From contig CANRFU010000010.1 in assembly GCA_947629975.1 (NCBI GenBank), positions 1 to 35,101 on the forward strand: 35,101 nucleotides of DNA, in the 5' to 3' direction. The notes under the pieces are model-generated. The model saw nothing but the letters and a program-made list of their open reading frames with translations, ran no database searches and had not been told where the DNA came from. A program made the translations under genes and the position numbers. Every line of letters begins with the position of its first letter. Position 1 is the stretch's first letter. This DNA is from an uncultured Oscillospiraceae bacterium. GTDB lineage: Bacteria; Bacillota; Clostridia; Oscillospirales; Oscillospiraceae. Positions 3,532-23,358 of the stretch are shown here, one piece after another.

Positions 3532-4539
3532 TCAATCGTAGAACCCCTGCGCCATATCGTGGCTTACCTGGGATGCGTAATACTGACCCATAGTAATCGG
3601 CGCATTGTAGAGAGCCGACAAGGTGTACGATTTTATGTTGCGGATCAACGACGTGTTGTTGTTCATGCACTCCAGCACATAGGCGATATGGAACTTGTCC
3701 AGTTTCAAGAACCGGTTTTTGACCACCCCGGTCGGAATGTCTTCCCCCGCGATGCGGATAAAGTCTTTGTGGGAACAGCACACCTCCACCATGAGTTCCA
3801 CATAGCCCTCCAGCACATCCGCATCATAGGGGTGTTCCTGGAGCAGAAGGTCAAAGTCGATGTTCTCCTTGATTAGCTCCCGGTAAGAATCCATCTCATC
3901 TATCCTCATCCGGCGTTTGCTTCGGACCACAACAGGCCGGCCACGGGCGGAGGGGGAAGGGGGAAGGATAGATAGGTCAGTATCGTTCAATTCAGTATGA
4001 TTATACTCAGTATTATTTGAGGCGGTTTTCCCGAAGTCTTGGGTTCTACCACATCGAAGTCTAGACTTCGGTTTTTCAGAAGTCAAAGCATCGGTGCTGC
4101 CCGGAAGTCCAGACTTCGGTTTTTCAGAAGTCTGCATCCCATCCGCTGGTGGGGATGGATTAGGGTGGTCCGGTGGAGAAGGAGTAAATCTTTTTAAGTA
4201 GATGAGGGTCGGTTTGCCTTGCCCTTGCTTGTGGCGTTCGATTAGGCCAATCCCGCCGCATAAATCAAGCTCCTTAAACAATCGTACCGCCTTATCTTTT
4301 CCACAGCCCAGCATCGACAAAGCATCCTCTAGGGTGAAGTAAATGTAAACGCGACCCGCATTGTCCAGCCATCCGTTACGGACGGACAACCCCATTCGAT
4401 CCAGCATGAGTCCATAGAGAATCTTGGCCTCCATGGAGACACTCGAAAAACGCGGTTCAGTGAAAAGCGTTTTCGGAATACGATAGAAGCTGAACTGCTC
4501 CGCTTCATTTCCGTAGAAGTAATCCAGATCTAATGACAT
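3532..4539 (-). CDS. repA: replication initiator protein A (RepA_N-type N-terminus)
   Basis: Start taken at MSLDLDYFYGNEAEQFSFYRIPKTLFTEPRFSSVSMEAKILYGLMLDRM, the typical RepA_N winged-helix start of Firmicute ICEs/plasmids; preceded by gaggagggtcac RBS. Confidence 0.85.
   Translation of the reverse strand: MSLDLDYFYGNEAEQFSFYRIPKTLFTEPRFSSVSMEAKILYGLMLDRMGLSVRNGWLDNAGRVYIYFTLEDALSMLGCGKDKAVRLFKELDLCGGIGLIERHKQGQGKPTLIYLKRFTPSPPDHPNPSPPADGMQTSEKPKSGLPGSTDALTSEKPKSRLRCGRTQDFGKTASNNTEYNHTELNDTDLSILPPSPSARGRPVVVRSKRRMRIDEMDSYRELIKENIDFDLLLQEHPYDADVLEGYVELMVEVCCSHKDFIRIAGEDIPTGVVKNRFLKLDKFHIAYVLECMNNNTSLIRNIKSYTLSALYNAPITMGQYYASQVSHDMAQGFYD
4056..4132. repeat. two near-identical 29-bp repeats (4056-4084 and 4104-4132) inside repA, each with a 14-bp palindrome or near-palindrome
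   Basis: gaagtctagacttcggtttttcagaagtc and gaagtccagacttcggtttttcagaagtc; one mismatch, 48 bp start-to-start. Confidence 0.85.
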
Positions 4540-4569
4540 AGTGACCCTCCTCAAATCGTCATAAAAAAG

Positions 4570-4604
4570 CCACACCGCAACTGAATAAAGTCAGTTGCGG
4601 TGTG
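4570..4604. other. inverted repeat / hairpin upstream of repA
   Basis: ccacaccgcaactga-ataaag-tcagttgcggtgtga, long near-perfect arms. Confidence 0.7.
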
Positions 4605-5005: not shown

Positions 5006-5035
5006 AAAGCGGCCGCTCAAAAAAGCGGCCGCTTT
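5006..5035. terminator. rho-independent terminator downstream of the assT operon
   Basis: aaagcggccgct-caaaaa-agcggccgcttt perfect 12-bp arms with flanking A/T. Confidence 0.8.
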
Positions 5036-5058: not shown

Positions 5059-6975
5059 TCAGCAGGTGATCTGCAGGCCGGTCTCGTACTTGGTGTCGTC
5101 GATGATCACGCGGATGTCATAGGTGCCGGAAAGCCCCGCCTTGTTGACCGAGTAGTTGATGGGGCGCTTGAGGGCGTTCTCGTCCAGCGTGCTGGCGTCC
5201 AGGAAAGTGCCCATGCACATGGCTTTGAAATCGCCCTTGGAGGTGGACATGAAGTAGGGGTGGCTCTCCTCGCCCTGCTCCAGCAGCAGCAGGACCATCT
5301 GGCCCTTCATAAAGGTGGCGTGGAGGGTGAAGCGGTCCATCTCCTCGGTGAGACTGGCCTCGCACTTTTCAGGGATCATCTCGCCGGAGGGATCCATCGG
5401 GATGTTGGTCTCGAACTCCTTGGTGACGCCCATCTCGCCCAGGATCCTGCCCTTGCCCAGCTCCAGGTTGATGCCGTCGCTGTACGGCTTCAGCTTCTCG
5501 CCGCGATAGTAGTTGCCGTGGACCTTGAGCTCCAGCATCAGCTTGTTGTTGTCGATCTCGGTGGTGATGGAGTAGATGGAGCCGCCCAAATGCCGGATCA
5601 TCGGGCCCAGCATCTCGGAGGGCTCGCCCTCGGCGGTGTAGGCGATGCCGCCGGAGTGGACCATGTAGTGCCCCTCGTTGTAGAACTCCACGTTGCAGAT
5701 GTAGGGGGAGAAGAACGCGGCGCCCCGGTCCTTGCCGTACTCCCAGACCTGCTCGATGGTCATATCCTTGGTGTTGATGTGGTAGCGCACGCCCCGGGAG
5801 TAGTTGTCCTTGGCGGGCAGATATTGCTCGGGGTCGCGGGCGCCGTAGTGGTGGTTGTCGAAGCACATCACGTCGCCGTCGGGGGTGATGAGGTTAGCGT
5901 GCTGCTCATACTGCCAGCCGAAGTTGCTGCCGATGGGCTTGAAGCAGTATTTCTCCACGAACTCCCTGGGCCAGCCATAGTGCTCCTTTTCCGGGTCGTC
6001 GAAGACCTGGGGATCGGTGATGACCCAGTTGAGCTTGCCGGTGTCGAAGTCGATGTTGACCATGGAATTCACATGGCGGCCGGAGAAGGTAAGAGAGTTG
6101 GTGTTGGGATCGTACCACACGGCGTTGTTATGGAACCAGTCCTCCTCGGACCAGCTGCCGGAGCGGCCGTAGCCAACGGGCATGAAGTCCTTGTAGTCCC
6201 AGGTCTTGAGGATCTCGCCGGTCTCCCGGTCCACCAGCACGCACATATCCTCCACGGTCTCGCTGGTCAGGTCCTCGGTGAGGATGAGCAGATTGCCGTC
6301 GGGCATCTCGAAGGAGTCGTGATGGTAGCCGCCGGGGAGGCGGAACTCCTTGTAGATCTTGCCGCACAGGCTCATCTCGTACAGGCCGGACATGTAGTAG
6401 GGGAGCTTGAGCAGACGGTCGGTGCCGATGACCACGTTGCCGTTGCGCAGACGCTTCATATCGAAGGAGCAGGGCACGTTCAGATGCCAGCGGGCGTCGC
6501 CCCGATAGTCGTAGGCCACGGCCAGATCGTCGGTGGCGGGGGTGACGAAGATCAGGTTGTCCTGGAGGTACTCGGGAGTGGTGTCCATGGAGATGATGGG
6601 GTCTTTCCCGTCGAAGACGTCGGGCGTCTCGATGGTGATGACAGCCTTCTCACCCCGGTAGGCCTGGATCTCCACCTGGTTGGCGTAGTTGGAGTACAGG
6701 CCCACGATGGGCAGGACGTGGGTCTTGGCGGGGGCGAAGGTGTGGTAGATGTTGCCCTGGGGCCGGATCTTGCCCAGGACGGTGACCGTGATGGCGACCT
6801 CCTCCTCGGTCTTGAAGGCGATCACCGCGGACAGGGGGTTGATGAAATACAGATTGAGCTTGACCAGGGGGTTTTGCAGGGTGTAGCCGCCCTGTTCCAG
6901 CTCGGCGAGCATCTCCTGCTCCGCCTGATACTGGCGCTCGATGATGTGCTCCTTGAACTCGTATTTGACAGCCAT
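5059..6975 (-). CDS. assT: aryl-sulfate sulfotransferase (ASST family), no signal peptide
   Basis: 638 aa; beta-propeller repeats with DWFHNNAVWYDPNTNSLTFSGRHVNSMVNIDFDTGKLNW, EQHANLITPDGDVMCFDNHH, YSRGVRYHIN typical of arylsulfotransferases; N-terminus is hydrophilic. Confidence 0.8.
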   Translation of the reverse strand: MAVKYEFKEHIIERQYQAEQEMLAELEQGGYTLQNPLVKLNLYFINPLSAVIAFKTEEEVAITVTVLGKIRPQGNIYHTFAPAKTHVLPIVGLYSNYANQVEIQAYRGEKAVITIETPDVFDGKDPIISMDTTPEYLQDNLIFVTPATDDLAVAYDYRGDARWHLNVPCSFDMKRLRNGNVVIGTDRLLKLPYYMSGLYEMSLCGKIYKEFRLPGGYHHDSFEMPDGNLLILTEDLTSETVEDMCVLVDRETGEILKTWDYKDFMPVGYGRSGSWSEEDWFHNNAVWYDPNTNSLTFSGRHVNSMVNIDFDTGKLNWVITDPQVFDDPEKEHYGWPREFVEKYCFKPIGSNFGWQYEQHANLITPDGDVMCFDNHHYGARDPEQYLPAKDNYSRGVRYHINTKDMTIEQVWEYGKDRGAAFFSPYICNVEFYNEGHYMVHSGGIAYTAEGEPSEMLGPMIRHLGGSIYSITTEIDNNKLMLELKVHGNYYRGEKLKPYSDGINLELGKGRILGEMGVTKEFETNIPMDPSGEMIPEKCEASLTEEMDRFTLHATFMKGQMVLLLLEQGEESHPYFMSTSKGDFKAMCMGTFLDASTLDENALKRPINYSVNKAGLSGTYDIRVIIDDTKYETGLQITC

Positions 6976-6990
6976 GGCGCATTCCCTCCG

Positions 6991-7302
6991 TTAAGATTTG
7001 AATTCTTCGATCAGCTTCACAAGGGCGGTCTTCTGCTGGAGGCCGGTGAGCCGCTTCTTCTCCTCCCCGTCCTTGAACAGGATGATGGTGGGGTAGCCGG
7101 CCACGCCGAATTCTTTGCACAGATCGGGGTTGGCCTCAAAGTTGACCTTGAGGATGCTCAATTCGGGGAAGAGCTTTTCGATGTCCTTGAGCACGAAGCC
7201 CAGCATTTTGCAGGGCCCGCAGGTGGCGGAAAAGAAATCGGACAGCACCAGGCCGGAGCCGTACTTTTCCTTGAATTCTGTGGCGTTGACTTCCTGGATC
7301 AT
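6991..7302 (-). CDS. trxA: thioredoxin
   Basis: 103 aa; FFSATCGPCKMLGFVLKDIEKL active site CGPC; GYPTIILFKDGEE. Confidence 0.93.
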   Translation of the reverse strand: MIQEVNATEFKEKYGSGLVLSDFFSATCGPCKMLGFVLKDIEKLFPELSILKVNFEANPDLCKEFGVAGYPTIILFKDGEEKKRLTGLQQKTALVKLIEEFKS

Positions 7303-7329
7303 GGGTAGGACCCTCCTGTCTTTTTGTGA

Positions 7330-8304
7330 TCAGATCTCGTGAGCCTGGATGTAATGGGCGGCCTCCTGCCCGGCGATGGCGCCGTCGGAGCAGGCGGTGA
7401 TGCTCTGCCGGAGGAATTTGACGATGACGTCGCCCGCGGCAAAGACCCCGGGGACGCCGGTGCGCATGTGGGCGTCCACCGTCACGTAGCCCCGGTCCAG
7501 GATGCCCAGATCCTGGCAGAACTCGGTGGTGGGGATCAGGCCGATGAACTCGAACACGCCGTCGCAGGGGATCACGTGCTCCCCCATCAGCTTTTCGTCC
7601 ACGGTGTCCGCCGGGCCGAACCTGGGGTCCTTGTCGTTTTCGTTGTTCCGAACCCGGACGCCGGTGAGCTTCGTCTCGCCCTCGAACCCCAGAACGTCCT
7701 GATAGACGTAGATCTTCACGTTCTCCTTCTGGCGCAGCCGGTCGCAGACCATGGGGTCGGCGGTGAGGCCCAGCATAGTGACGATGGTCAGGCTTTTGGC
7801 GATGTCGGCCAGGAAGAGGGACTCCTCCACGGCGGAGTTGCCGCCGCCGACGACCACGCAGTCCTTGCCCCGCATCTGCTCCCCGTCGCACACGGCACAC
7901 CAACTGATGCCGTTGCCGGAGAAGCGGTCCTCGCCGGGGGCGTCCAGCACCCGGTGGCGGGTGCCGGTGGCGATGAGCACGGTCTTCCCCTCGAAGACGG
8001 CGCCGTCCTCCTCGCATACCACCTCTTTCAGCAGGGGGCCCTTGTCCCGGACGGCCACCACGGTGCGGTAGTCAAAGGTGATGCGCTCATAGGTCTGGGT
8101 GTGCTCGAACATCTTCATGGCCAGCTCGGCGCCGTTGATGTTGTCGAAGCCGGTGTAGTTCTGGATCTCGTTGGTGTTGATGAGCTGCCCGCCGGGGGCC
8201 AGCTTATCCAGCATCAGCACCGTCAGGTCGGCCCGGGCGGCGTAGATGGCGGCGGTCATGCCGGCGGGGCCGGCGCCTACGATGATAAGATCATACAGGG
8301 GCAT
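7330..8304 (-). CDS. trxB: thioredoxin-disulfide reductase
   Basis: 324 aa; GAGPAGMTAAIYAARA FAD motif, CAVCDG redox motif, GGGNSAVEES NADPH motif. Confidence 0.93.
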   Translation of the reverse strand: MPLYDLIIVGAGPAGMTAAIYAARADLTVLMLDKLAPGGQLINTNEIQNYTGFDNINGAELAMKMFEHTQTYERITFDYRTVVAVRDKGPLLKEVVCEEDGAVFEGKTVLIATGTRHRVLDAPGEDRFSGNGISWCAVCDGEQMRGKDCVVVGGGNSAVEESLFLADIAKSLTIVTMLGLTADPMVCDRLRQKENVKIYVYQDVLGFEGETKLTGVRVRNNENDKDPRFGPADTVDEKLMGEHVIPCDGVFEFIGLIPTTEFCQDLGILDRGYVTVDAHMRTGVPGVFAAGDVIVKFLRQSITACSDGAIAGQEAAHYIQAHEI

Positions 8305-8338
8305 TTTGCATCCTCTCCTTTTGAACGAATTTGGCCGG

Positions 8339-9829
8339 TCAGCCCATCATCAGGGTGGCGAAGGGGATGCCCAGCCCCAGCACAAGGACGATCTCCACCA
8401 GGGCGTAGACGGCGGAGTACTTGTAAACGTCGCCGGAGTTCAGGTCCTTATTGGCAAACATCATGGCCGCAAAGGGAGAGGCCGCGGGGGTGAGCATGGC
8501 GGACTGGAGCACGAAGAAGATCAGCAGGGTGACCATGGGGGCCACGTTGGCGCCGGTGGCGTTGCCGTAGGTCAGGATGATGGGCTGGAGGAGCATGCCG
8601 ATCACCAGGGAGTTGCACACGTTGGTCAGCACGAAGGCCACCATCAGCAGGGCGATGGTGAACACCAGGGTGGACATATTCTGGAAGATGGGGGAGAGCA
8701 GAGCGCCCAGCAGGGCGGCCACGCCGGTGGCCTCGCTGGTCAGCACGCTGCCCAGCAGGATGGCGGTGGCGCAGATGAAGAAGGTGGGCCAGGCGAAATC
8801 CCGCTGCATACTGGTGACGAAATTGACCGTGGGCTTCCCGTCGGAGAGGACGATGGCGCCCATGATGCCCATGTAGAGGGCGGCAAAGCCCATGGAGTTG
8901 GCGCTCAGGAACTGCATGACGGGGATGCCGGGCAGCAGGGAGGGCACCAGCATCACCAGGACGTAGGCGCAGAAGGTGCCGAAGATCAGCTTCTGGCGGG
9001 TGTTCATGGGGGGCAGGGCGGTGCTGTCCAGTTTCTCCATGGTCAGGTCCTTCAGCTTATCCACGTTGGGGCGCAGGATGAACTTGGTGACCAGGATGGC
9101 CACGGCCAGCTCCAGGATGCCCATGATGAAGCAGGTGATGAAGTACTTGCCGTCGTTGATGACCACGTTGGGATCGATGCCCCGGTAGTTGCTCAGCAGG
9201 GCCAGGCCGTTGGACATGTAGGGGGGAACGGGGAAGCCCAGCAGGGCGGCCACCACGATGAGGATGGTCATCAGTTTGGGATACTTATCCTCCCTGGTGT
9301 AGCCCAGATCCTCGTAGATGCCCTTCATGATGGGCCAGAACAGGAGGATGGGCACGAACGCGCCGATAAAGACGCTCATCAGATAGCAGCACAGCAGGAT
9401 CATGCAGGTGAAGACCCAGGGGTGGCCCAGGTTGACCTTCAGGGTGAGGAAGAAGCGGCCGATGTAGTGGGTGATCTTCTCATAGGTCAGGCAGGCGGTG
9501 ATGGCCATGATGAAGAACAGCTGCACCACGGTGGGGTTGCCAAACCACTCCTTCAGCACGCCGTTCATGGGCATATAGCCGGTGAAGGCCACCGCCACGG
9601 CGGAGAGGATGCTGCACCAGACCGGGTCCACGGTGGTCCACAGATACAGGGTGCCCACGAAAACGCCCAGGACCTTCCGGCCCACCTCGGTGACGGTGCC
9701 GTCGGGATAGGGGATGGGGAGCAGTGGAACGATGAACATGATCAGGATGCCGATGATCGCGTGGATGATCTTGCTGTTGAACTGGAATTTGACGCTGCTG
9801 TCGGGAATCGTGTTTGGCATGTGATTCAC
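8339..9829 (-). CDS. SLC13/DASS-type anion permease
   Basis: 496 aa polytopic hydrophobic protein; start and TM pattern typical of SLC13 family permeases. Confidence 0.7.
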   Translation of the reverse strand: MNHMPNTIPDSSVKFQFNSKIIHAIIGILIMFIVPLLPIPYPDGTVTEVGRKVLGVFVGTLYLWTTVDPVWCSILSAVAVAFTGYMPMNGVLKEWFGNPTVVQLFFIMAITACLTYEKITHYIGRFFLTLKVNLGHPWVFTCMILLCCYLMSVFIGAFVPILLFWPIMKGIYEDLGYTREDKYPKLMTILIVVAALLGFPVPPYMSNGLALLSNYRGIDPNVVINDGKYFITCFIMGILELAVAILVTKFILRPNVDKLKDLTMEKLDSTALPPMNTRQKLIFGTFCAYVLVMLVPSLLPGIPVMQFLSANSMGFAALYMGIMGAIVLSDGKPTVNFVTSMQRDFAWPTFFICATAILLGSVLTSEATGVAALLGALLSPIFQNMSTLVFTIALLMVAFVLTNVCNSLVIGMLLQPIILTYGNATGANVAPMVTLLIFFVLQSAMLTPAASPFAAMMFANKDLNSGDVYKYSAVYALVEIVLVLGLGIPFATLMMG

Positions 9830-9933
9830 TCCTCTTCTTTTCTCAGGATAGGACTGTTTGGATGCCCGCGGAAAAAGACACCGGTCGAAACAGATATATT
9901 ATACAATATTTACATCCGCGAAGATAGAACATA

Positions 9934-9949
9934 TGTTAATTTTTGAACA
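9934..9949. promoter_or_regulatory. candidate Crp/Fnr-type operator between the SLC13 gene and the regulator
   Basis: TGTTAA-TTTT-TGAACA, 16-bp dyad (5/6 matching positions per half, N4 spacer). Confidence 0.5.
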
Positions 9950-10050
9950 AACATGCGTTAAATTTCAGACAAGCTTTTGGGAAAAATGAGTCTTCCCTTT
10001 TCTGACAGATATGATAGAATGACCGGGAAAGGCAAAGAACAGAGAGGGGG

Positions 10051-10728
10051 GTGGCTGACACGGATGTGAAGGAGCGCGCGGCGGAGCTGTTCCGCCAGAA
10101 CGGGAAGCGGCTGGAGTTCCTCCCGGGGGAGAACCTCTTCAACTCCGCCCTGGACCAGGGCGGAAGCTTCGCCCACTTTCTGGACAGCGGGTCCTGTTCC
10201 CTGTCGGGCTTCACCCGGGACGGCAGGGAGCATATCTTCCTCTACTTTCACGGCCAACGGGTGGTGGGCTTTATGCAGCTCATGCCCATCGAGTTCGGGG
10301 GGGATCCGCCCCACATCGTCGTCACCGCCAAGACCCCCTGCGTGGTCTACCGGGTGACCCGGGAGCAGTTCCAGGGGTTTTTGCGGGAGGAATCCTCCTT
10401 CCAGACCTATATGCTCCAGGTGGTGTCCGAGAACTATCTGAATCTCATCAAGCACTATCAGTCCGGCCAGGGCCAGTGCGCCACCAGCCGGCTGTGCGCC
10501 CTTCTGCTGGACTACGCCGGGCGGGAGGGGGATGCGCTTTGTATGCCCGCCTATTTCAATATGGCGGAGTTCTCCCGCTATCTGGGGGTCCATACCGTCA
10601 CGGTGTCCCGCATCATGGTCCAGCTGAAGCAGCGGGGGTACATTGAAAAGCAGGGCCGCCGGATCCTCCTGAGGGACCCGGAGGGACTGGGCCGGCTGAT
10701 CCGGGATCAGTCCAACTTCGACTTCTGA
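10051..10728 (+). CDS. Crp/Fnr family transcriptional regulator
   Basis: cNMP-binding-fold N-terminus plus HTH MAEFSRYLGVHTVTVSRIMVQLKQRGYIEKQGRRILLRD; GTG start after agagagggg. Confidence 0.9.
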   Translation: MADTDVKERAAELFRQNGKRLEFLPGENLFNSALDQGGSFAHFLDSGSCSLSGFTRDGREHIFLYFHGQRVVGFMQLMPIEFGGDPPHIVVTAKTPCVVYRVTREQFQGFLREESSFQTYMLQVVSENYLNLIKHYQSGQGQCATSRLCALLLDYAGREGDALCMPAYFNMAEFSRYLGVHTVTVSRIMVQLKQRGYIEKQGRRILLRDPEGLGRLIRDQSNFDF

Positions 10729-10751
10729 GAGATACCCGCGCCAGATATAAG

Positions 10752-10780
10752 AGCGCCGCCCCGGATCCCGGGGCGGCGCT
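10752..10780. terminator. bidirectional terminator between convergent genes
   Basis: agcgccgccccgg-atc-ccggggcggcgct followed by ttcg. Confidence 0.8.
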
Positions 10781-10797
10781 TTCGTATCTGTGTCCCG

Positions 10798-11568
10798 TCA
10801 TGGGGCGGAGAGCGGCCGGAACACGTATTCCTCGCCCCAGGGGAGGGACGCCCGCGCCGCCGCCACGCCGAAGACGCGCTCCACGCTCCCGTTGGCGCAG
10901 AGATCCGCCGGGGCGCCGTCAGCCACCACGCCGCCCCCGTCCAGCAGGATCACGCGCCGGGCGTACCGCAGGGTCAGGTCCAGGTCGTGGAGGACCATGA
11001 CGACGGTCTTTCCCATGCCGGCCAGGTGGCGGGCCAGTTCCATCACCTCGAACCGGGCGCGGATGTCCAGGTAGGTGGTGGGCTCGTCCATGAGGATGAC
11101 GCCGGTGTCCTGGGCCAGGGCCATGGCGATATAGACCTTCTGCCGCTCGCCCCCCGAGAGGGAGGCCATCCCCCGCTGGGCCAGATGGGAGCAGCCCACC
11201 CACTCCAGGGCGGCGCGGGCGGCGTCGAAGTCCTCCCGCCGGTATTGCCGGGGGAATGAGAGGTAGGCGAAGCGGCCGTGGAGGACCATGCGCAGGGCGG
11301 TCAGCTCCGGGACGTTGCGCCCCTGGGGCAGATAGGCCATCCGCATGGCCCGCTGCTGGGGAGAGAGTTCCTCCAGGGGCGCGCCCTCCAGTAGCACCTG
11401 CCCCCCGAGGGGGGGCAGCAGGCCGGAGGCGGTCCTGAGCAGGGTGCTCTTGCCGCAGCCGTTGAGGCCGCCGATGACCGTGATCTCCCCGGGGGACAGC
11501 GCCAGGTCCAGGTCCCGGAGGACGGGCTGTCTGCCGTAGCCCGCCGTGAGGCGGCGGAATTCAAGCAT
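10798..11568 (-). CDS. ABC transporter ATP-binding protein (iron/cobalamin FecE/BtuD type)
   Basis: MLEFRRLTAGYG...GGLNGCGKSTLLR (Walker A), LSGGERQKVYIAMALAQDTGVILMDEPTTYLD. Confidence 0.92.
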   Translation of the reverse strand: MLEFRRLTAGYGRQPVLRDLDLALSPGEITVIGGLNGCGKSTLLRTASGLLPPLGGQVLLEGAPLEELSPQQRAMRMAYLPQGRNVPELTALRMVLHGRFAYLSFPRQYRREDFDAARAALEWVGCSHLAQRGMASLSGGERQKVYIAMALAQDTGVILMDEPTTYLDIRARFEVMELARHLAGMGKTVVMVLHDLDLTLRYARRVILLDGGGVVADGAPADLCANGSVERVFGVAAARASLPWGEEYVFRPLSAP

Positions 11569-12583
11569 GGATGCGCCCCCCTCTCTGCCGGATGAGCAGG
11601 ACCAGGAAGAAGGGGACCCCCAGGAAGGCCAGGAAGATGCCGGCCGGGAGTTCATAGGGGGCGAAAAGGAGCCGGGCGGCCAGATCGCACAGGGCCGTCA
11701 GGGCCGCGCCGCACAGGGCGGACATGGGGATCAGCCAGCGGCTGTCCGCGCCCACCAGGGTCCGCCCCAGGTGAGGGACGATGAGGCCGACAAAGCCCAG
11801 CAGGCCGCAGAAGCTGACGCTGGCCCCCGCCAGCAGGGCGGACAGGGCCAGCAGCAGCACCCTGAACCGCCGCACCGGGAGGCCCAGGCCGTGGGCGGTG
11901 GTCTCCCCCATGGAGAGCACGTCCAGCTCATTGGACAGCAGGAAGGCCAGCAGGATGCCCGCCAGGATGACAACGACGGCGGGCCAGAGCCGCCCTCCGG
12001 CGCCGGTGACGCCGGAGAAGCCCCCCACCCGGAAGTCCACGCTGCTCATGGCGGTGTCGGGGAAGAAGGCCCGCAGGGTCTCGCTGACGGCGTTGAGCAG
12101 GGCGTTCACCGCCACGCCGGACAGGACCACCGTCAGCCGGGAGGCGCCGGTGAGCCGGCCCAGGCAGGACACCAGGACCACGGCGGCCAGCGCACCCAGA
12201 AAGGCGGCCCCGGACATCACCCAGCCGGCGGCGGAGAACACGCAGCAGACGGTGACGGCCAGCCCCGCCCCGGCGTTGACCCCGATGATATTGGGGGCGG
12301 CCAGGGGGTTGGCCAGCACCGACTGGAGGATGCACCCCGCTGTGGCCAGCCCCGCCCCCGCGGCCAGACAGGCGGCGGTGCGGGGCAGACGGGAGTACCA
12401 GAAGATGCGCCCCGCCGCCGAGGTCCTGTCCCCGGTGAGAAGGCTCTGCCAGATCTGGGCGGGGGACAGGGGCACCGCCCCCAGGGCAAGGCTGAGCAGC
12501 CCGGCGGCCAGCATGCAGAGCAGCGCCCCCGCCATCAGCAGGCCCCGGCGCTTATCCGAAAAGGATGCGGGCAAGTCCCTCAT
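11561..12583 (-). CDS. FecCD-family ABC transporter permease
   Basis: 340 aa polytopic protein; GAGLATAGCILQSVLANPLAAPNIIGVNAGAGL and FCGLLGFVGLIVPHLGR signatures. Confidence 0.93.
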   Translation of the reverse strand: MRDLPASFSDKRRGLLMAGALLCMLAAGLLSLALGAVPLSPAQIWQSLLTGDRTSAAGRIFWYSRLPRTAACLAAGAGLATAGCILQSVLANPLAAPNIIGVNAGAGLAVTVCCVFSAAGWVMSGAAFLGALAAVVLVSCLGRLTGASRLTVVLSGVAVNALLNAVSETLRAFFPDTAMSSVDFRVGGFSGVTGAGGRLWPAVVVILAGILLAFLLSNELDVLSMGETTAHGLGLPVRRFRVLLLALSALLAGASVSFCGLLGFVGLIVPHLGRTLVGADSRWLIPMSALCGAALTALCDLAARLLFAPYELPAGIFLAFLGVPFFLVLLIRQRGGRIHA

Positions 12584-13553
12584 ATGCCTCCCCCCAGCGG
12601 TCGTTAGGTTTCAGATTGTAGAGCTTCTGATCCATGAAGTAGAGCTTCCCCTCCTTCACGGCGGTGAGGCCGCTCCAGGCGGGGCTGCCGGTGAGTTCGG
12701 CGGTCAGCGTCTCCCGGACCGCCGCCTCGTCGTTGCCCTGGAGGACGATGAAGATGAGCTCGGGATCGTCCGCGATGATCCGCTCCAGGCTCAGGTCCTC
12801 CAGCAGGGAGTTGTCGCTGTCGGCGATGTTGACGCACCCCAGGTCGGTGAGCATATTGCCCAGGACGGTGCCCTCCCCGCCCTTGGCCTTCACGCTGGAG
12901 GAGCTGGCCCGGAGGTAGAGGACGGTGGGGTGGGTGTCCTCAGACCTGGCGCGCTCCACCACCGCGTCGATCCGGGCCTGGGCGGCGAGGCCGTTGCTCT
13001 CATACAGGTCCCGGCGGCCGGTGATCTGCGTGCAGATGTCCAGCATGTGGAGATATTCGGGGAAGTCGTTCACATCGAAATAGGCGGCGGGGATGCCCAT
13101 CTCCTCGAAGGTGGGCATCAACTCCACGTCGATGTCCGTATTGGGGCTGGCGATGATGAAGTCCGGCTCCACTGACAGCAGCAGTTCCAGGCTGATGTTC
13201 CGGGTGGTCCCCAGGTCTATCACGCTCTCGTCCAGCCCCAGGTCGAACTGGGTCCAGGCGTCGTTGGCGGTGGCCGCGATGTCCCCGCCGGCCAGGCTCC
13301 ACACATGGGCGAAGCTGCCGATGAGGGGGACCACTCGCCGGGGGTTTTTGGGCACGGTGACCTCCCGCCCCAGATCGTCGGTGAAGGTGACGCTCTCCTC
13401 CGCCGGCTCCGTCTCCGGGAGGGCGGACCCGGCCGGAGCGGCCGCGGAGGGGGGGGGGGCGGGAGATCCGGTCACGGCAGGCCCCCCGGCCCCGCAGGCG
13501 GCCAGGGTCAGGGCAAGCGCGAGGCACAGGGCCAGAACTGCGCGTTTTTTCAC
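12552..13553 (-). CDS. ABC transporter substrate-binding lipoprotein (FecB/BtuF type)
   Basis: Lipobox MKKRAVLALCLALALTLAACGAGG; TFTDDLGREVTVPKNPRRVVPL typical of periplasmic_BP_2 proteins. Confidence 0.92.
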   Translation of the reverse strand: MKKRAVLALCLALALTLAACGAGGPAVTGSPAPPPSAAAPAGSALPETEPAEESVTFTDDLGREVTVPKNPRRVVPLIGSFAHVWSLAGGDIAATANDAWTQFDLGLDESVIDLGTTRNISLELLLSVEPDFIIASPNTDIDVELMPTFEEMGIPAAYFDVNDFPEYLHMLDICTQITGRRDLYESNGLAAQARIDAVVERARSEDTHPTVLYLRASSSSVKAKGGEGTVLGNMLTDLGCVNIADSDNSLLEDLSLERIIADDPELIFIVLQGNDEAAVRETLTAELTGSPAWSGLTAVKEGKLYFMDQKLYNLKPNDRWGEAYEGLARILFG

Positions 13554-14986
13554 AGAGATCCCTCCAGTCTCGATTCCAGCAGGGCGCGGACCATGCCTTC
13601 GCCGGTGGTGTCCGCGCTCCGGGCCAGGACGGAAAGCCCCAGTTCTTCGGCCCGCCTGGCGGTGTGGGCGCCGATGCAGATGCAGCCCTTCCGGGGAGGG
13701 CGCCCGCCTCCGGAGAGGTAGTTCTCCGCCCCGCCGGCGGAGCCGAGGAGGAGGTAGTCCACCTCCTCGTTCCGGACGGGGCCGGGGATCAGGCGGTACA
13801 GGACGAGGCGTTCCCAGGCCACCCCGGCGGCGGTCAGGATCCGCTCCGGGGCGTCGGAGGCGTTTTCCGCCCCGGCCAGGAGCACCGGCCCCTCCCCCCG
13901 CTCCGCCAGGGCCCGGCCCAGGGCGGCGGTGTCATGGGTCCGGGGGGTCAGGTCGGGGTAGATGCCGCGGCGCTCCAGCGCCCCGGCGGTGCCGGGGCCC
14001 ACGGCGGCGAACTTCACGCCGGAGAGGGCCCGCAGGTCCAGGCGGTCTTGGGCCAGAAGGCGGAAAAAGACCTCCGGCCCGTTGGGACTGGTGAAGGCGG
14101 CCCAGGCGGGCTTCCGCTCCAGGGCGGCGGCCAGCCGGCCGGCGGAGCAGGCCGGCTCCACCCGGCTGGTCTGAAGGGCGAGGACCTCGCCGCCCCAGGG
14201 GAGCAGGGCGGCGCGGAGCTTGTCCTGGAAGCTCCGGGTGCCGGTGACGCCCACCCGGACCCCGTCCAGAGGGCGGGCAGGGCCGGTGAGGTCCAGGGCG
14301 GCGGTGTCCCCCACCACGATGACGGCGGGAGGCGGGAAGCCCTCGGCCAGGGGGGCGATGTGGGCCAGATCTCCCCGGACCACCGTTCCGCCCACCACGG
14401 CGGCGGGGGTGCCGGGGGGCTTCCCGGCGGCCATGAGCCTCCGGGCCAGGGCCTCCAGCCGGGACAGGCCCATGAGGAACACCAGCGTGCCGGAGAGTCC
14501 CGCCAGCCGGTCCAGGTCCTCGGGGAGGCCGTCGCCGGTGCCGGCGGTGTGGGCGGTGATCACATGGAAAGAGCGGCTCACCGCCCGGTGGGTCACCGGG
14601 ATGCCCCACAGCTCCGGGACGGCCACCGCCGAGGTGACGCCGGGGACCAGGGCGAAGGGGACCCCCGCCGCCCGGAGGGCCAGGGCCTCCTCGCCCCCGC
14701 GGCCGAAGACGAAGGGGTCGCCCCCCTTGAGGCGGCATACGTTCTTCCCCGCCCGGGCCAGGGAGATCAGGGCCTGGTTGATCTCCTCCTGGGAGGCGCT
14801 GTGTTTCCCCAGACGCTTGCCCATATAGTGGAGTTCCGCGCCCGGGCCGGCCAGGTCCAGCAGGCCCTCGGGCAGCAGGTCGTCATAGACCACCGCGTCG
14901 GCCCTTTTCAGGCACTCCAGGCCCGCCAGGGTCAGCAGGTCCCGGCGGGCGCACCCGGCGCCCACCAGCCAGACGAATCCGCTCAC
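13550..14986 (-). CDS. cobA-hemD: fused uroporphyrinogen-III C-methyltransferase / uroporphyrinogen-III synthase
   Basis: N-terminal GFVWLVGAGCARRDLLTLAGLECLKRADAVVYDDLL and RLKGGDPFVFGRGGEE (SUMT); C-terminal HemD-like domain GVRVGVTGTRSFQDKLRAALL. Confidence 0.92.
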   Translation of the reverse strand: MSGFVWLVGAGCARRDLLTLAGLECLKRADAVVYDDLLPEGLLDLAGPGAELHYMGKRLGKHSASQEEINQALISLARAGKNVCRLKGGDPFVFGRGGEEALALRAAGVPFALVPGVTSAVAVPELWGIPVTHRAVSRSFHVITAHTAGTGDGLPEDLDRLAGLSGTLVFLMGLSRLEALARRLMAAGKPPGTPAAVVGGTVVRGDLAHIAPLAEGFPPPAVIVVGDTAALDLTGPARPLDGVRVGVTGTRSFQDKLRAALLPWGGEVLALQTSRVEPACSAGRLAAALERKPAWAAFTSPNGPEVFFRLLAQDRLDLRALSGVKFAAVGPGTAGALERRGIYPDLTPRTHDTAALGRALAERGEGPVLLAGAENASDAPERILTAAGVAWERLVLYRLIPGPVRNEEVDYLLLGSAGGAENYLSGGGRPPRKGCICIGAHTARRAEELGLSVLARSADTTGEGMVRALLESRLEGSL

Positions 14987-15600
14987 GGCGCTCCCTCCTC
15001 CCGGTCCAGACAGGTCCCGATCTCCTCCTCGGTCAGGGGCCGGCCCTTTTCCAGGGCGGCGGCGAGGCAGGCGCGCAGAAAGGCCGCCCGCCGGGGCTGC
15101 CGGGAGAAGGCCGCCTTCGCCCGGGGGCGCAGGGCCTCCATCTGGTCAAGGATGTCCTCGAGGCGGCCGGGCAGCACCTCCCCCAGCCGGTCCCGGACCC
15201 AGGCGGCGGCCAGGGGGCTGGCCCCGCCGGTGGAGACGGCGGCGGTGAGTTTTCCCCGCCGGAGGACCGCCGGGAAGATCACCGAGCAGTATCGGGGCAT
15301 ATCCACCACGTTGAGGGGGATCCCCCGCTCCCCGCAGAGCCGGGAGAGGGCCTCGCCCACGGCGGGGTCGCCGGTGGCGTCCACCACCAGGGCGCAGCCG
15401 TCCAGGTCGCCCTCCTCCACCTTCCGGGGGAGGAGCCGGACGGGCAGGGCGGCCAGTTCGGGCAGGACCTCCGGGGCGGCTACGGTGACGCCGGCGCCGC
15501 ACTCCAGCAGGGCCGACGCCTTGCGCAGAGCTACCCTGCCGCCGCCGGCCACCAGACACCGTTTTCCGCTCATCTCCATGAACAGGGGGAACCAGGCCAT
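14983..15600 (-). CDS. precorrin-2 dehydrogenase / sirohydrochlorin ferrochelatase-type siroheme synthase (CysG N-terminal domain)
   Basis: FPLFMEMSGKRCLVAGGGRVALRKASALLECGAGVTVAAPEV; LNVVDMPRYCSVIFPAVLRRGKLTAAVSTGGASPLAA. Confidence 0.92.
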   Translation of the reverse strand: MAWFPLFMEMSGKRCLVAGGGRVALRKASALLECGAGVTVAAPEVLPELAALPVRLLPRKVEEGDLDGCALVVDATGDPAVGEALSRLCGERGIPLNVVDMPRYCSVIFPAVLRRGKLTAAVSTGGASPLAAAWVRDRLGEVLPGRLEDILDQMEALRPRAKAAFSRQPRRAAFLRACLAAALEKGRPLTEEEIGTCLDREEGAP

Positions 15601-15630
15601 GGCGGACCTCCTCTCTTCCTGATAGGGTGA

Positions 15631-15660
15631 GAGGGCCCCGACGGCCTCGTCGGAGCCCTC
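15631..15660. other. intercistronic hairpin between asrC and the siroheme synthase gene
   Basis: gagggccccgac-ggcctc-gtcggagccctc; no T-tract on the minus (transcript) side. Confidence 0.6.
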
Positions 15661-15685
15661 TAATATGGGTTTGCGGATCAGACGC

Positions 15686-16753
15686 TCAGGCCTTGGGACC
15701 CGCGGTGTGGTGCATGGACATGGGTTTCACGTTGAAGTTGGAGCGGTACTCGGTCTCGTGCCAGAAGATGTCCTCCGCCACCAGGCACTCGGGATTGAGC
15801 TCCACACCCTCCAGGATGATCTCCTTGAACTTCTTGTAGCCGGCCCGGTCGATCAGGTGGCCGCCGTGGAGGTACTCGGGCTTGTAGTCCATGACCCAGG
15901 CGGAGAACTTCTGCCAGTTCTTCAGCACGCCCATGATCACGTCCTCGCTGGCCCAGTTCAGGAACATCTTGCCGGCCCGGGGGGTCTGACGGCCGGTGCG
16001 GCCGCCCAGGATGACCTTGTACAGGGGCTTCTCCCGGCGGGTCCAGGCGCTGGTGGGGCAGACCCGGGCGCACTCGCCGCAGCCCACGCAGCAGCAGGGG
16101 TCCTTGTCGATCTTGCCGGTGGCCTCATTGAGGGAGAGGACCCGGGTGGCGGCGTGCTCGCACTGATTCACGCAGCGGGCGCAGCCGATGCAGCGCTCGG
16201 GGTGGTAGTCGATCTTGGTGGTGCCGATGATGCCGAAGTCGCACATATGGGCCTTGTTGCAGTCGTTGGGGCAGCCGGAGATGTTGATCTTGATGTGGTA
16301 GTGGCTGGGGAAGATGATGGACTCGATCTTCCGGGCCAGCTCAAAGGTGTTGATGTTGGCGCAGATGCAGTGGTAGTTGCCGATGCAGCCGGTGATGTTC
16401 CGGGCGCCGATGGTGGGGTAGCCGCTCTTGGGGTCCCAGGGGTGAGGTTCATGGGCCACGGTGTCCATGTCCACGCCGCACAGCTCGGCGTCCACCTCGC
16501 GGATGTAGGACTCCAGGTACTCGTTGACGGCGGGGATGTCCTCGTACTTGATGCCGGTGATGTCGAAGGTCTGCCGGGTGCCGAAGTGGAAGTTGCCGTC
16601 GCCCCAGGTGTCGGCGATGTGCTCCACATAGGTCAGGTATTTGGCCGCCACCATGCCGCCGGGGACGCGCATCTGCAGCATGAACTCCCCGGGGACTTTG
16701 GACTGGCGGAAGCAGTTGAGACGTACCTTTTTGACGTTGATGTCTTTGTTCAT
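15686..16753 (-). CDS. asrC: anaerobic sulfite reductase subunit C (siroheme + 4Fe-4S)
   Basis: MNKDINVKKVRLNCFRQSKVPGEFMLQMRVPGG; siroheme-binding NISGCPNDCNKA; ferredoxin motifs CIGCARCVNQCEHA and CVGCGECARVCPTSA. Confidence 0.92.
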   Translation of the reverse strand: MNKDINVKKVRLNCFRQSKVPGEFMLQMRVPGGMVAAKYLTYVEHIADTWGDGNFHFGTRQTFDITGIKYEDIPAVNEYLESYIREVDAELCGVDMDTVAHEPHPWDPKSGYPTIGARNITGCIGNYHCICANINTFELARKIESIIFPSHYHIKINISGCPNDCNKAHMCDFGIIGTTKIDYHPERCIGCARCVNQCEHAATRVLSLNEATGKIDKDPCCCVGCGECARVCPTSAWTRREKPLYKVILGGRTGRQTPRAGKMFLNWASEDVIMGVLKNWQKFSAWVMDYKPEYLHGGHLIDRAGYKKFKEIILEGVELNPECLVAEDIFWHETEYRSNFNVKPMSMHHTAGPKA

Positions 16754-16769
16754 ATCCTTCGCTCCTCTC

Positions 16770-17561
16770 TCAGTCCACCAGGTCGCGGGCCACGGAGTAG
16801 GGGAACACCGGCCCGTCCAGGCACACATAGACTTCGTCGATGCGGCAGTGGCCGCACTTGCCGACGGCGCAGGACATCTTCCGCTCGAAGCTCATCCAGA
16901 TGTTCTCCACCTTGGCACCGCACTTGAGCAGCTCCAGGCCGGTGAACTTCATCATGGGCGGGGGACCCACCACCACGACGGCGTAATCGTCTCCCCACTG
17001 GTCGAAGGGGATCTCCTTGACGAAGGCGGTGACCATGCCGGTGCGCCAGTTCTCTTTGACGTCGTTGTCCAGGGCGTAGATGGTGGTGAACTTGTTCTTC
17101 CACTCCTCCAGCTCCTTGTGGAAGACGATGCCCTCCTCGTTCTTGAAGCCGCAGATGAGGGTCACGTCCTTCACCAGGCCGGGTCCGGCGGCGAAGGCGT
17201 TGAGCATGGAGCGGACGGGGGCCAGGCCGGTGCCGCCGGTGATGACCACCATGTGCTTGCCCCTGAACTGGTCCACGGGCCAGCCTTTGCCGTAGGGGCC
17301 CCGGAGGAAGAGGGTGTCGCCGGCGGTCTTCTCAAAGATCACGTTGGTGACCTTGCCCACGTTGCGGATGGTGAACTCCAGCCAGCCGTCCCCCTGGGCG
17401 GAGACCGAGATGGGGGCCTCGCCGATCATGGGGATGGACAGCTGCATGAACTGCCCGTGGGCCACTTTCGCGTCGGTGGCCACCCGGAACGTCCACTCGT
17501 GGACGCTTTCCTTATGTACGTCCAGGATCTTGCAGGGATAGGGCTGAACGGGATTGATCAT
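16770..17561 (-). CDS. asrB: anaerobic sulfite reductase subunit B (FAD/NAD-binding)
   Basis: Start at MINPVQPYPCKILDVHKES; HMVVITGGTGLAPVRSMLNAF; C-terminal CAVGKCGHCRI 2Fe-2S-type motif. Confidence 0.9.
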   Translation of the reverse strand: MINPVQPYPCKILDVHKESVHEWTFRVATDAKVAHGQFMQLSIPMIGEAPISVSAQGDGWLEFTIRNVGKVTNVIFEKTAGDTLFLRGPYGKGWPVDQFRGKHMVVITGGTGLAPVRSMLNAFAAGPGLVKDVTLICGFKNEEGIVFHKELEEWKNKFTTIYALDNDVKENWRTGMVTAFVKEIPFDQWGDDYAVVVVGPPPMMKFTGLELLKCGAKVENIWMSFERKMSCAVGKCGHCRIDEVYVCLDGPVFPYSVARDLVD

Positions 17562-17575
17562 CTCTGGCCACCTCC

Positions 17576-18619
17576 TTATGCTTTGCCCAGGTCCGCCTTG
17601 ATCTCGGCAACGGCGGCGCTGACTTTGTTGACGGTCGCGGAAATGGAGATCAGCTCGGGGCAGCGGTGGGTGCACCGGCCGCAGCCCACGCACATGTGGC
17701 GCTCGCCGAAGCGGGCCTTGTAGTCGTGGAACTTATGCAGGACCTTGTAGCGCATCCGGTCCCCGGCGGTGGAGCGGAACTCCCGCTGGCCGGCCATCTG
17801 GTCGAAGCCGGCGATCTGGCAGGAGGCGGTCACCCGGCGGCGCTCGCCCACCTCGGGGTTGTCGCCGTAGATGACGTCCCGGGTGGTGAAGCAGGTGCAG
17901 GTGGAGCAGGCCACCGTGCAGGCGCCGCAGGAGACGCACCGGGCGTCGTATTCCTTCCACATGGGGTGCTTCTTCAGGGCCAGACGGACCTCTTTGTCGC
18001 TGAGGTCGGGCACTTCGACCTTCAATTCGTTTTCGGTGACGAACTCAGGGGCAAAATCGCAGCTGTCACACCCGGCGAAGAAGGGCTCCAGCTCGGGGTC
18101 GGTGACCTTGACCTCCATGCCGCCGTCGGAGAACTTCACGGCGGCGGAGTAGTCCCCCTCGTCCACGGCGTTGGACCCCATGGACACGCAGAAGCACGTG
18201 TCGTCCCCGCCGTTGCAGTCCATCAGGATGAACTTGACCCGCTCCCGCATCCGGGCGTAGTACAGGTCGGTGAAGCCGCCGTTGCCGGCGAAGATCCTGG
18301 CCTGGATCTTCTGGGCGTTGATGTCGCAGGGCCGGGCGAAGATCAGCACGGGCTGCTCCTTGACCTTGCTGGCGCGGTACTCGTCCTCGGTGAAGTAGAA
18401 AATGGCCTGCTGAATGGGGTTGATGACTTCCTTGGCGGGGTAGTCCGATTTGACCTGCCACACGATCTCGCTGGCGCTGGAGACCTTGTCGTAGCGGATG
18501 GAATCGGTGGCCGAGTAGCGGCCCTGATTGACAAAACGCTTGGGAGCGTAGACCGCGTACTTCTCCGCCAGCGTTCCCAGGACCTTGTCGGCCTGCTGGG
18601 TGTTCAGGATGTAACTCAT
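17576..18619 (-). CDS. asrA: anaerobic sulfite reductase subunit A (4Fe-4S)
   Basis: MSYILNTQQADKVLGTLAEKY; CVSCGACTVACSTCTCFTTRDV and CVGCGRCTHRCPELISI. Confidence 0.9.
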   Translation of the reverse strand: MSYILNTQQADKVLGTLAEKYAVYAPKRFVNQGRYSATDSIRYDKVSSASEIVWQVKSDYPAKEVINPIQQAIFYFTEDEYRASKVKEQPVLIFARPCDINAQKIQARIFAGNGGFTDLYYARMRERVKFILMDCNGGDDTCFCVSMGSNAVDEGDYSAAVKFSDGGMEVKVTDPELEPFFAGCDSCDFAPEFVTENELKVEVPDLSDKEVRLALKKHPMWKEYDARCVSCGACTVACSTCTCFTTRDVIYGDNPEVGERRRVTASCQIAGFDQMAGQREFRSTAGDRMRYKVLHKFHDYKARFGERHMCVGCGRCTHRCPELISISATVNKVSAAVAEIKADLGKA

Positions 18620-18802: not shown

Positions 18803-19720
18803 TCATACTCCCGCCGGATCTGAAAAAGAACCGCCGTCCTCGTCCTTGGCCAGATCCGCGCAGATACGCCGGAAGCGGGCAAAGGCGTCGCTCTGGTACT
18901 TGTTCCGGTGATATGCCAGCACAAATTCCCGGGACAGGTCCAGTCCCTCCGCCCGGAAGGCCCAGAGGTCCCCGCGGTCCAGGCTGTCCCGGAGGATGCG
19001 GGGGGACAGGGCGGACAGGCCGAAGCCGCGGACCACCGCCTGCCGGATGGCCTCCGGCTCGCTGGACACCCAGCCCACATGGTAGCGGACCCGGTGCTTT
19101 TGGAGTTCCCGCTCCAGCTGGGCGCGGGTGCCGCTGCCCTCCTCGCGAAGGAGGAAGGTCTGGCCGTCCAGTTCCCCGGGGGAGATCACCTCCCGGCCAA
19201 AGAAGGGGTGGTCCCGCCCGCAGATGAGGGAGAGGGCGTCCTTCACCACCTGTTCCCGCACCAGGTCCGGGTGGGTGACCAGCCCCTCCACCAGGCCGAT
19301 GTCCAGTTCATAGCGGAGCAGCCGCTCCTCGATGCTCCGCGTGTTGGCCACGAAGACCTCCAGGTTGATCTGGGGCAGTTCCCGGCGCAGCCGGTCCAGC
19401 AGGGGGCACAGCACGCTGCACCCCACCGTGGCGCTGGCCCCCACCCGCAGATGGGGCCGCTGGGTGGCCCCCCGGAGGAAGGTCTCGGTCTCCCGGGCCA
19501 GATTCAGGGTCTCCCGGGCGTACTCCAACAGAGTGCGGCCCACGTCGGTGAGGTGGAGGGAGTGGGCGTAGCGCTCGAACAGGAGGACGTCGTACTCCCG
19601 CTCCAGATCCACCACCACCTGACTCACCGAGGACTGGCTGATCCGCAGTTTACGGGCCGCCGCGCTCATGGTGCCGCACTCCACTACCGCGGCGAAGATC
19701 TCAAGCTCTCTGGTGGTCAT
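18803..19720 (-). CDS. LysR family transcriptional regulator
   Basis: Start at MTTRELEIFAAVVECGTMSAAARKLRISQSSVSQVVVDLEREYDVLLFERYAHSLHLTDVGR, canonical LysR HTH. Confidence 0.93.
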   Translation of the reverse strand: MTTRELEIFAAVVECGTMSAAARKLRISQSSVSQVVVDLEREYDVLLFERYAHSLHLTDVGRTLLEYARETLNLARETETFLRGATQRPHLRVGASATVGCSVLCPLLDRLRRELPQINLEVFVANTRSIEERLLRYELDIGLVEGLVTHPDLVREQVVKDALSLICGRDHPFFGREVISPGELDGQTFLLREEGSGTRAQLERELQKHRVRYHVGWVSSEPEAIRQAVVRGFGLSALSPRILRDSLDRGDLWAFRAEGLDLSREFVLAYHRNKYQSDAFARFRRICADLAKDEDGGSFSDPAGV

Positions 19721-20863: not shown

Positions 20864-20966
20864 CGATTACAGTTAAAACCATCATTGAAATCGCATGGCA
20901 TTGGCAGCAGGTGAAGGGAGGAGACGAACCGCACGCTGCCAAAATTCATTTTGGGAGGTTGGTTCC

Positions 20967-22271
20967 ATGGCAAAATGTGTCGTGGTGGCGGACGACCTGA
21001 CCGGCGCCAACGCCACCGGCGTGCTTCTCAAGAAGAGCGGATTCGACACCCTTACCCTGCTGCACTCCTCCGCCGGGCCGGCCGCGTGTCCGATCGAGTG
21101 CGACTGCCTCGTCGTCCCCACCGACAGCCGTTCGGTCAGCCCCCAGGAGGCCTACGACCGGGTGCGGGAGGCCCTCGCCTCCCATTCCGGGCCGGAGGTC
21201 CGCTTCTATGCCAAGCGCATCGACAGCACCCTCCGGGGCAACCTGGGCAGCGAGACGGACGCTTTCCTGGACGCCCTCGGCCCGGAGTACATCGCGGTGT
21301 GCGTGCCCTGCTTCCCCAGCTCCGGCCGGGTGATCGTGGGGAGCCACCTTCTGGTCAACGGGGTCCCGCTGCGCAGGACCGAGGTGGCCGCCGACCCCAA
21401 GTGCCCCATCCACACCACCGATGCGTTTTTGCTGTATCAGGGCCAGACGAAGTATCCGGCGGCCGCCATCCACCTGGACGAGGTCCACAACGGCGCGGAG
21501 CGCCTGGCCGGCCTGATCGCCGCCCGACGGGATGAGGGCGCCCGGGTCCTGGTGGTGGACAGCGTGACCGAGGAGGACCTGGAGACGGTGGCGGAGGCCG
21601 TGGCCCTCTCCGGGATCCCCGCCGTCAGCGTGGACCCGGGTCCGTTCACCGCGTGCCTGGGCAGGCGGCTCATCCCCCGGGAGAAGGCGAAGACGCCGGC
21701 GGGGAAGATCTTCTGCGCCATCGGCTCGGTCAACGGCGTGGCCGGCGCCCAGACCCGCGCTCTGCTGGCCGGCCGCCCGGTGACGGCGGTCTACCTGGAG
21801 ACGGCCGAGATCCTGGAGAGCGACGAGCGCCGCCGGAAGGAGATCGAACGGCTGACGGCCGAACTGGTCCGGCGGCGGGGGGAGTCCGATATCCTGGCGG
21901 TGATCGGCTGCGGCATCGACCCCAAGCGGCGGGTCCCCTTCGAGCCGTACATGGAGCGGTGGGGGCTGGACGCCGAGGGGCTGTCCGCCCGGATCAACAC
22001 CGCCTTCGCGGAGGTGACGCTGGGGGTGCTGGAGGCCTGCCCGGAGATCGGCGGGGTGTACTCCACCGGGGGCGACATCACCGCCGCCATCCACAGCGCC
22101 GCCGGCACGGTGGGCCTGCGCCTGCTGGACGAGGTGCTCCCCCTGGCGGGCTACGGCATCGCCATCGGCGGGACGCTGGCGGGCAAGGCGTTTGTCAGCA
22201 AGGGCGGCATGGTGGGCGATGAGAACGCCATGGTCACCTGCACGGATTACCTGCTGGAACATCTGAACTGA
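20967..22271 (+). CDS. four-carbon acid sugar kinase family protein (DUF1537)
   Basis: Start at [26 protein letters not shown] after gggaggttggttcc; next to a PdxA-like dehydrogenase. Confidence 0.88.
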
Positions 22272-22291
22272 GAAAAGAGGAGGAAGCAAGT

Positions 22292-23293: not shown

Positions 23294-23358
23294 GACGTCC
23301 GTTGGCATTTCACACCGGCACAGAACGAAATTATCATTGAGTGAGAGGAGTTGTCATT

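Follow-up and report, generated by a model that had tools for sequence, protein, structure and literature searches.

Gene content of the locus

We examined a 35,101-nucleotide stretch of contig CANRFU010000010.1 (assembly GCA_947629975.1; the whole stretch is called the window, and coordinates are positions within it) from an uncultured Oscillospiraceae bacterium, an anaerobe that probably lives in the gut. It carries four closely spaced genes encoding an SLC13/DASS-type transporter (SLC13), a thioredoxin reductase (TrxR), a thioredoxin (Trx) and an AssT-family sulfotransferase (AssT), with intergenic gaps of 34, 27 and 15 bp, and a divergent gene for a Crp/Fnr-type regulator (Table 1). This layout agrees with an initial annotation, made by reading the sequence alone, which had also described the operon as self-contained. 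The latter description does not hold: genes for an anaerobic sulfite reductase (AsrABC) and for siroheme synthesis, overlooked at that time, are found upstream in the same orientation (13550-18619), so that the unit is part of a sulfite-reduction cluster. A genome-wide search for AsrC led back to the window itself, and AsrA, AsrB and AsrC all score above their NCBIfam equivalog cut-offs. The Pfam scan found no PF01507 domain (3'-phosphoadenosine-5'-phosphosulfate (PAPS) reductase) in the cluster. Judged by gene content, nearly all of 5059-18619, on the minus strand save for the Crp gene, fits a role in sulfate-ester and sulfite metabolism.

Table 1. Features of the cluster and its surroundings in the window
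Feature	Positions	Strand	Supporting match
SLC13/DASS-type transporter	8339-9820	minus	PF00939 3e-14, 53.3 bits (cut-off 27)
Thioredoxin reductase (TrxR), CAVC	7330-8304	minus	Pyr_redox_2; best NCBIfam TRX_reduct
Dedicated thioredoxin (Trx), SATCGPCKM	6991-7302	minus	PF00085, 75.5 bits
AssT-family sulfotransferase, 638 aa	5059-6975	minus	PF05935 E=7e-95, 318.6 bits; PF17425 64.1 bits
AsrA, ferredoxin-like subunit	17576-18619	minus	TIGR02910 409.9 bits (cut-off 323.2)
AsrB, NADH/FAD subunit	16770-17561	minus	TIGR02911 325.7 bits (cut-off 288.6)
AsrC, catalytic subunit of anaerobic sulfite reductase	15686-16753	minus	TIGR02912 355.5 bits (cut-off 324.1)
Precorrin-2 dehydrogenase/ferrochelatase, CysG N-terminal type (siroheme)	14983-15600	minus	TIGR01470 133.5 bits (cut-off 62.3)
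Uroporphyrinogen-III methyltransferase + HemD fusion (siroheme)	13550-14986	minus	TIGR01469 above cut-off; HEM4
Crp/Fnr-type regulator, divergent	10051-10728	plus	cNMP_binding + HTH_Crp_2
Putative Crp/Fnr operator TTAACATATGTTCT	9926-9939	minus	9/10 match to WTAAC-N4-GTTAW
Fe/haem/B12-type ABC importer	10798-13553	minus	Pfam Peripla_BP_2, FecCD, ABC
LysR-type regulator, upstream of asrA	18803-19720	minus	best NCBIfam YeiE, NF040889 210 bits (cut-off 480)

AssT contains PF05935 together with an N-terminal Ig-like domain (PF17425), both above cut-off. As had been claimed, it has no signal peptide (its N terminus, MAVKYEFKEH..., shows no hydrophobic segment) and several cysteines including the last residue: there are nine, with Cys638 terminal. 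TrxR has the expected FAD/NAD(P) domains and a CxxC motif (WCAVC); it falls below the TIGR01292 equivalog cut-off (283.6 against 343.5 bits) and is therefore a divergent, TrxR-like protein. Trx likewise misses the housekeeping thioredoxin equivalog (81 against 96.8 bits). A threonine (T27) replaces the usual tryptophan before its CGPC motif, and both T27 and CGPC are kept throughout the alignment of operon thioredoxins, while a separate canonical thioredoxin (WCGPC) is encoded elsewhere in the genome. The SLC13 gene starts at an ATG at 9820 preceded by a ribosome-binding site, with a GTG at 9829 also open, and its product, SLC13/DASS-like by PF00939, scores 35.3 bits for the TIGR00785 subfamily (cut-off 198.6).

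The terminator proposed after assT is seen as a GC hairpin at about 5006-5035; its T tail is weak, and it was not listed by a pattern scan. Directly downstream lies a replication-initiator gene (RepA_N/DUF6017, 3532-4575, minus strand), a neighbour which suggests that the cluster borders a mobile element or a remnant of one.

Conservation, linkage to sulfite genes and regulation

We scanned 85,462 species genomes and obtained 42 related loci, found in Lachnospiraceae, Erysipelotrichaceae, Hutsoniella, Anaerococcus, Niameybacter and others. TrxR, Trx and AssT occur in identical order and strand in 41 of these, indicating that the unit is more than a chance arrangement. Most of the related loci also have SLC13 in front and a Crp gene, which is divergent in the majority of SLC13-containing loci, and many carry a second AssT gene (AssT2) immediately after the first. 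The linkage of AssT to trx, trxB and SLC13 in related genomes, on which the initial annotation had staked its proposal, was thus borne out, and a cytoplasmic AssT with an importer and a dedicated, conserved Trx/TrxR pair is supported.

When the open reading frames of 63 AssT loci were clustered, genes for AsrA, AsrB and AsrC, then HemA and siroheme genes, were frequently seen behind the unit in the same orientation; SLC13-TrxR-Trx-AssT(-AssT2) runs straight into asrABC in 19 of the 33 loci with enough flanking sequence. asrC is present in 32/36 unit-bearing genomes compared with 37/200 genomes of a Lachnospiraceae background (Fisher p ~4e-16, uncorrected for phylogeny). The unit-linked AsrC proteins form a divergent subtype, scoring 350-377 bits against 457-574 bits for other AsrC. 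Six of the eight background genomes with a low-scoring AsrC carry a window-type AssT (>1000 bits), compared with none of the 29 that have only the canonical form. Since four of these genomes had already been known, the new ones were also counted by themselves, and the contrast is 2/4 against 0/29 (p=0.011). In these two new genomes, predicted by AsrC subtype, asr adjoins the AssT unit.

No Sat-type ATP sulfurylase was found in any of the 36 unit-bearing genomes, and 14 asrC-positive genomes, some of them incomplete metagenome-assembled genomes, have no PF01507 protein. The latter set thus has neither CysD nor PAPS reductase, and hence no source of sulfite from PAPS or adenosine 5'-phosphosulfate (APS). 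The four unit-bearing genomes without Asr all encode YeiH, the chief sulfite-resistance determinant of Salmonella (PMC12880088). The yeiH gene directly follows AssT in two of them (L033 and L034), lies 6.4 kb away in L035 and about 27 kb away in the fourth. Of the 32 Asr-positive genomes, 14 encode YeiH as well, and the adjacency of yeiH therefore weighs more than its mere presence. At a further locus (L090), the genes in front of AssT encode a TauE-type sulfite exporter and AsrA/AsrB-like proteins. Taken as genomic context, these links strongly support sulfite as the product of the unit, which we consider likely.

With regard to regulation, the putative operator in the SLC13/Crp intergenic region belongs to a WTAAC-N4-GTTAW dyad that is perfect in 16 of 20 homologous regions. 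In 60 dinucleotide shuffles the mean number of perfect dyads was 0.13 and the maximum 2, although this comparison is somewhat flattering since the pattern was picked after inspection. A TATAAT sequence lies at 9898-9903, and the operator would then be centred near -41.5 relative to the presumed start, the position of a class II activator. A search for operators of this type upstream of unlinked asr operons gave no consistent result. The regulator may be a chlorophenol sensor of the CprK type: structures of CprK do match (E ~1e-4), but better matches are obtained with other Crp/Fnr proteins.

Several neighbouring genes deserve mention. The ABC importer genes overlap the siroheme genes, and the other end of the importer set adjoins the Crp gene; similar sets follow asrC in L019 and AssT in L035, and the importer perhaps supplies cofactor or iron for Asr. 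The LysR-type regulator fails the YeiE equivalog score and is a related LysR protein only; YeiE itself binds sulfite in Cronobacter (PMC12880088). Further away, a four-carbon acid-sugar kinase (SBD_N/NBD_C), PdxA and a GntP permease stand in line at 20895-24723 (plus strand), plausibly a sugar-acid catabolic operon. Among the related loci, 16 have homologs of a neighbour of about 240 residues near the Crp gene (L028:15100-15819), which has no Pfam match at 1e-5 and reads like a phosphoribosyltransferase. L013, L015 and L041 have a second AssT-SLC13-Crp set (~12.0-16.4 kb), which lacks Trx and is convergent with the Trx-AssT unit.

Active site of AssT and its thioredoxin partner

The initial annotation had raised the possibility that the AssT-like fold has left sulfuryl transfer. 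This is not supported by the active site, as H252, H356, N358, R374 and H436 of the enzyme from uropathogenic Escherichia coli (UPEC) align with H219, H282, N284, R300 and H359 of the window AssT. Of these, H219, H282, R300 and H359 are kept in all sampled relatives, and sulfuryl chemistry is accordingly what the retained residues would lead one to expect. An AlphaFold2 model (predicted local distance difference test score, pLDDT, 89.6) had UPEC AssT as its best PDB match, with a template-modelling (TM) score of 0.63, and by sequence AssT matches PDB entries 3elq and 4p04.

Cys371, Cys427 and Cys587 are near-invariant in related AssTs and better conserved than Cys638, which is present in 34/42. 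A role for Cys638 as a swinging thiol of the CysH kind was rejected, since it is missing from 8/42 clade members and from most second copies; Cys427 and Cys587 were discarded as Trx-specific residues because AssTs with no Trx next to them have both as well. Cys371, which corresponds to Ile448 in UPEC AssT, is a cysteine in every AssT of the window clade and in the second copies, whereas 18 of 20 outgroup Bacillota AssTs have Leu, Val, Ile or Met there. In the tree the second AssTs group with L095 and L098 (Val), apart from the first AssTs. By parsimony, Cys371 would have been gained twice, each time in enzymes of this operon, with the reservation that the tree was a quick one and recombination is possible. 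The predicted strand boundaries (358-363 and 369-373) place Cys371 opposite residues 360-361 across a hairpin, a strand register that would bring it within about two residues of His359.

The linkage to thioredoxin genes also extends beyond the window clade. Another TrxR-Trx pair (CHVC) adjoins more distant AssTs in L089, L091, L093 and L094, and in L096 a CHVC thioredoxin stands alone beside AssT. In L113 (6607-8424) a short, distant AssT (PF05935/PF14269) and a thioredoxin form a single in-frame fusion, with PF05935 at 139-387 and PF00085 at 501-601 of the protein and a CQHC motif; TrxR precedes the fusion, and YeiH and a Crp gene follow it. L091 and L093 instead encode the matching short AssT, Trx and TrxR by individual genes arranged in a row. 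The gene fusion and the recurrent adjacency argue that Trx acts on AssT directly.

Proposed reaction, its alternatives and its significance

The explanation that we favour, and consider probable as a whole, is that the locus is a sulfate-ester reduction cluster in which AssT and Trx release sulfite for Asr. SLC13 is proposed to import an organic sulfate ester, probably an aryl ester. The sulfuryl group would then pass from the ester to the catalytic His359 of AssT, the proposed cytoplasmic catalyst of organosulfate conversion to sulfite, and the alcohol or phenol would leave. Such transfer from ester to catalytic histidine is expected for the family. From the sulfo-histidine the group would move to a thiol, either Cys371 of AssT or the CGPC thiolate of Trx, giving S-sulfo-cysteine. 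Attack or resolution by Trx, the proposed sulfuryl acceptor or resolver, would yield sulfite and a Trx disulfide, which TrxR is proposed to re-reduce with NADPH. Asr, with siroheme and with NADH as reductant, would finally convert sulfite to sulfide. The net reaction would be R-OSO3- + NADPH -> R-OH + HSO3-, followed by sulfide formation. The sulfuryl-transfer potential of activated aryl sulfates is similar to that of PAPS, and ATP would therefore not be needed. Gene content and order, their conservation, the catalytic residues and the links to sulfite genes are shown by the present data. We infer the substrate class, the direction and the electron flow, and, from gene content, the thiol step with its acceptor; the Trx-thiol mechanism as stated we hold to be probable.

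This proposal resembles known systems. UPEC AssT with DsbL/DsbI (PDB 3elq, 3ets, 4p04) shares the fold, the catalytic His/Arg set and an adjoining dedicated thiol-disulfide pair. However, it is periplasmic and receives a structural disulfide from an oxidising pair, whereas the window AssT is cytoplasmic and is accompanied by a reducing NADPH-Trx pair, an importer and a sulfite reductase. The window system does not belong to the AssT-DsbL/DsbI type, having no signal peptide and thioredoxin plus TrxR in place of a DsbA/DsbB-like pair; the analogy drawn in the initial annotation thus stands only in form. PAPS/APS reductase (CysH, PF01507) shares the logic of an activated O-ester, thiol attack, S-sulfo-cysteine and release of sulfite by Trx for sulfite reductase. 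It has an unrelated fold and uses an ATP-derived nucleotide, whereas an organic ester and, first, a covalent sulfo-histidine are expected for AssT, and the likeness would be only mechanistic, in logic and not in ancestry. As for AsrABC, the window subunits are of the Salmonella/clostridial kind by their equivalog scores, with AsrC of the divergent subtype tied to AssT-Trx.

Close characterised relatives are the cytoplasmic-type aryl sulfotransferases (ASSTs) of Desulfitobacterium and Hungatella, which belong to the same subfamily (the Bacillota AssTs that were compared share ~50-60% identity), are active on p-nitrophenyl sulfate (PMC11576661; reviewed in PMC13426309) and have been studied as biocatalysts only. 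The purified enzymes of Desulfitobacterium, Dehalobacterium and Hungatella effluvii use p-nitrophenyl sulfate as sulfuryl donor and phenols as acceptors (PMC11576661). Seven AssT genes are present in H. effluvii (L003/L137-L141), and several of them are each accompanied by an SLC13, Crp or TrxR gene, which suggests substrate-specific sets. The enzyme assayed from this species (reported 58.5%) is probably not the operon enzyme but a paralog that has TrxR as its neighbour (L139).

It should be underlined that several observations weigh against our explanation. The Hungatella and Desulfitobacterium relatives catalyse simple sulfuryl transfer to phenols with no thiol added (PMC11576661). For 10 loci, asr is found at another place in the genome, and Asr is absent from 4 genomes. 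The AssT-Trx fusion occurs in a single genome, 1/248 of its order, and in none further. Finally, the Trx-linked AssTs of L089, L095 and L098 and the L113 fusion have no Cys371, which is therefore not essential to every version.

The last point also bears on an unlikely alternative, namely that a small thiol (cysteine, CoA or sulfide) is the acceptor for AssT and that Trx reduces the resulting S-sulfo compound to sulfite, leaving the overall reaction unchanged. The Trx-linked AssTs without Cys371 would fit this, and thioredoxin and glutaredoxin systems do cleave S-sulfocysteine, but the AssT-Trx fusion and the double gain of Cys371 suggest a protein-bound thiol. The initial annotation had left the Trx couple as either redox maintenance or a catalytic electron donor. 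For the former, in which AssT performs ordinary aryl-to-aryl transfer and Trx/TrxR merely keep its cysteines reduced, one can cite the near-invariant Cys371, Cys427 and Cys587 of a cytoplasmic enzyme with a dedicated redox couple. Yet the genome has its separate canonical thioredoxin, Cys427 and Cys587 are shared with AssTs that have no Trx neighbour, and the adjoining asrABC, siroheme, yeiH and tauE genes would be left unexplained; we rate this reading as improbable. Because genes for sulfite handling (asrABC, yeiH, tauE) adjoin the unit, the electron-donor role fits much better. That Trx/TrxR serve general sulfite or sulfide handling (e.g. repair of persulfides or oxidised thiols), AssT being co-regulated because sulfated aromatics and sulfite co-occur, is very unlikely: Asr and yeiH do mark sulfite exposure in a neighbourhood shared with one Crp-type regulator, but Trx-TrxR stay with AssT where Asr is elsewhere or absent (L002, L013-L015, L027-L036), and in L113 Trx is fused to AssT.

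The component families of the sulfate-ester reduction proposed here are known, while their combination and the reaction appear to be new. A 2026 review describes the physiological role of ASSTs as poorly understood and does not mention thioredoxin (PMC13426309), and we found no description of AssT-thioredoxin-sulfite coupling in the open-licence literature, which is weak evidence of absence. We see the chances as evenly balanced that the cluster represents a new entry to the sulfur cycle, in which a beta-propeller sulfotransferase uses NADPH and thioredoxin, and no ATP, to reduce sulfate esters to sulfite, and the sulfite is either turned into sulfide by Asr or exported; this reaction would be widespread among gut Lachnospiraceae, Erysipelotrichaceae and their relatives and would act on sulfate conjugates from host or diet.

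The proposal offers a concrete role for PAPS-independent aryl sulfotransferases, that of feeding sulfite reductase from sulfate esters. If true, it would constitute an unrecognised bacterial route to sulfite and hydrogen sulfide on which no ATP is spent, saving what sulfate reducers use for activation. Conjugates made by the host liver (phenyl, p-cresyl, indoxyl, drug and steroid sulfates) would then be a source of hydrogen sulfide in the gut, and drugs and hormones would be deconjugated there by a route that surveys of sulfatases and sulfate reducers do not count.

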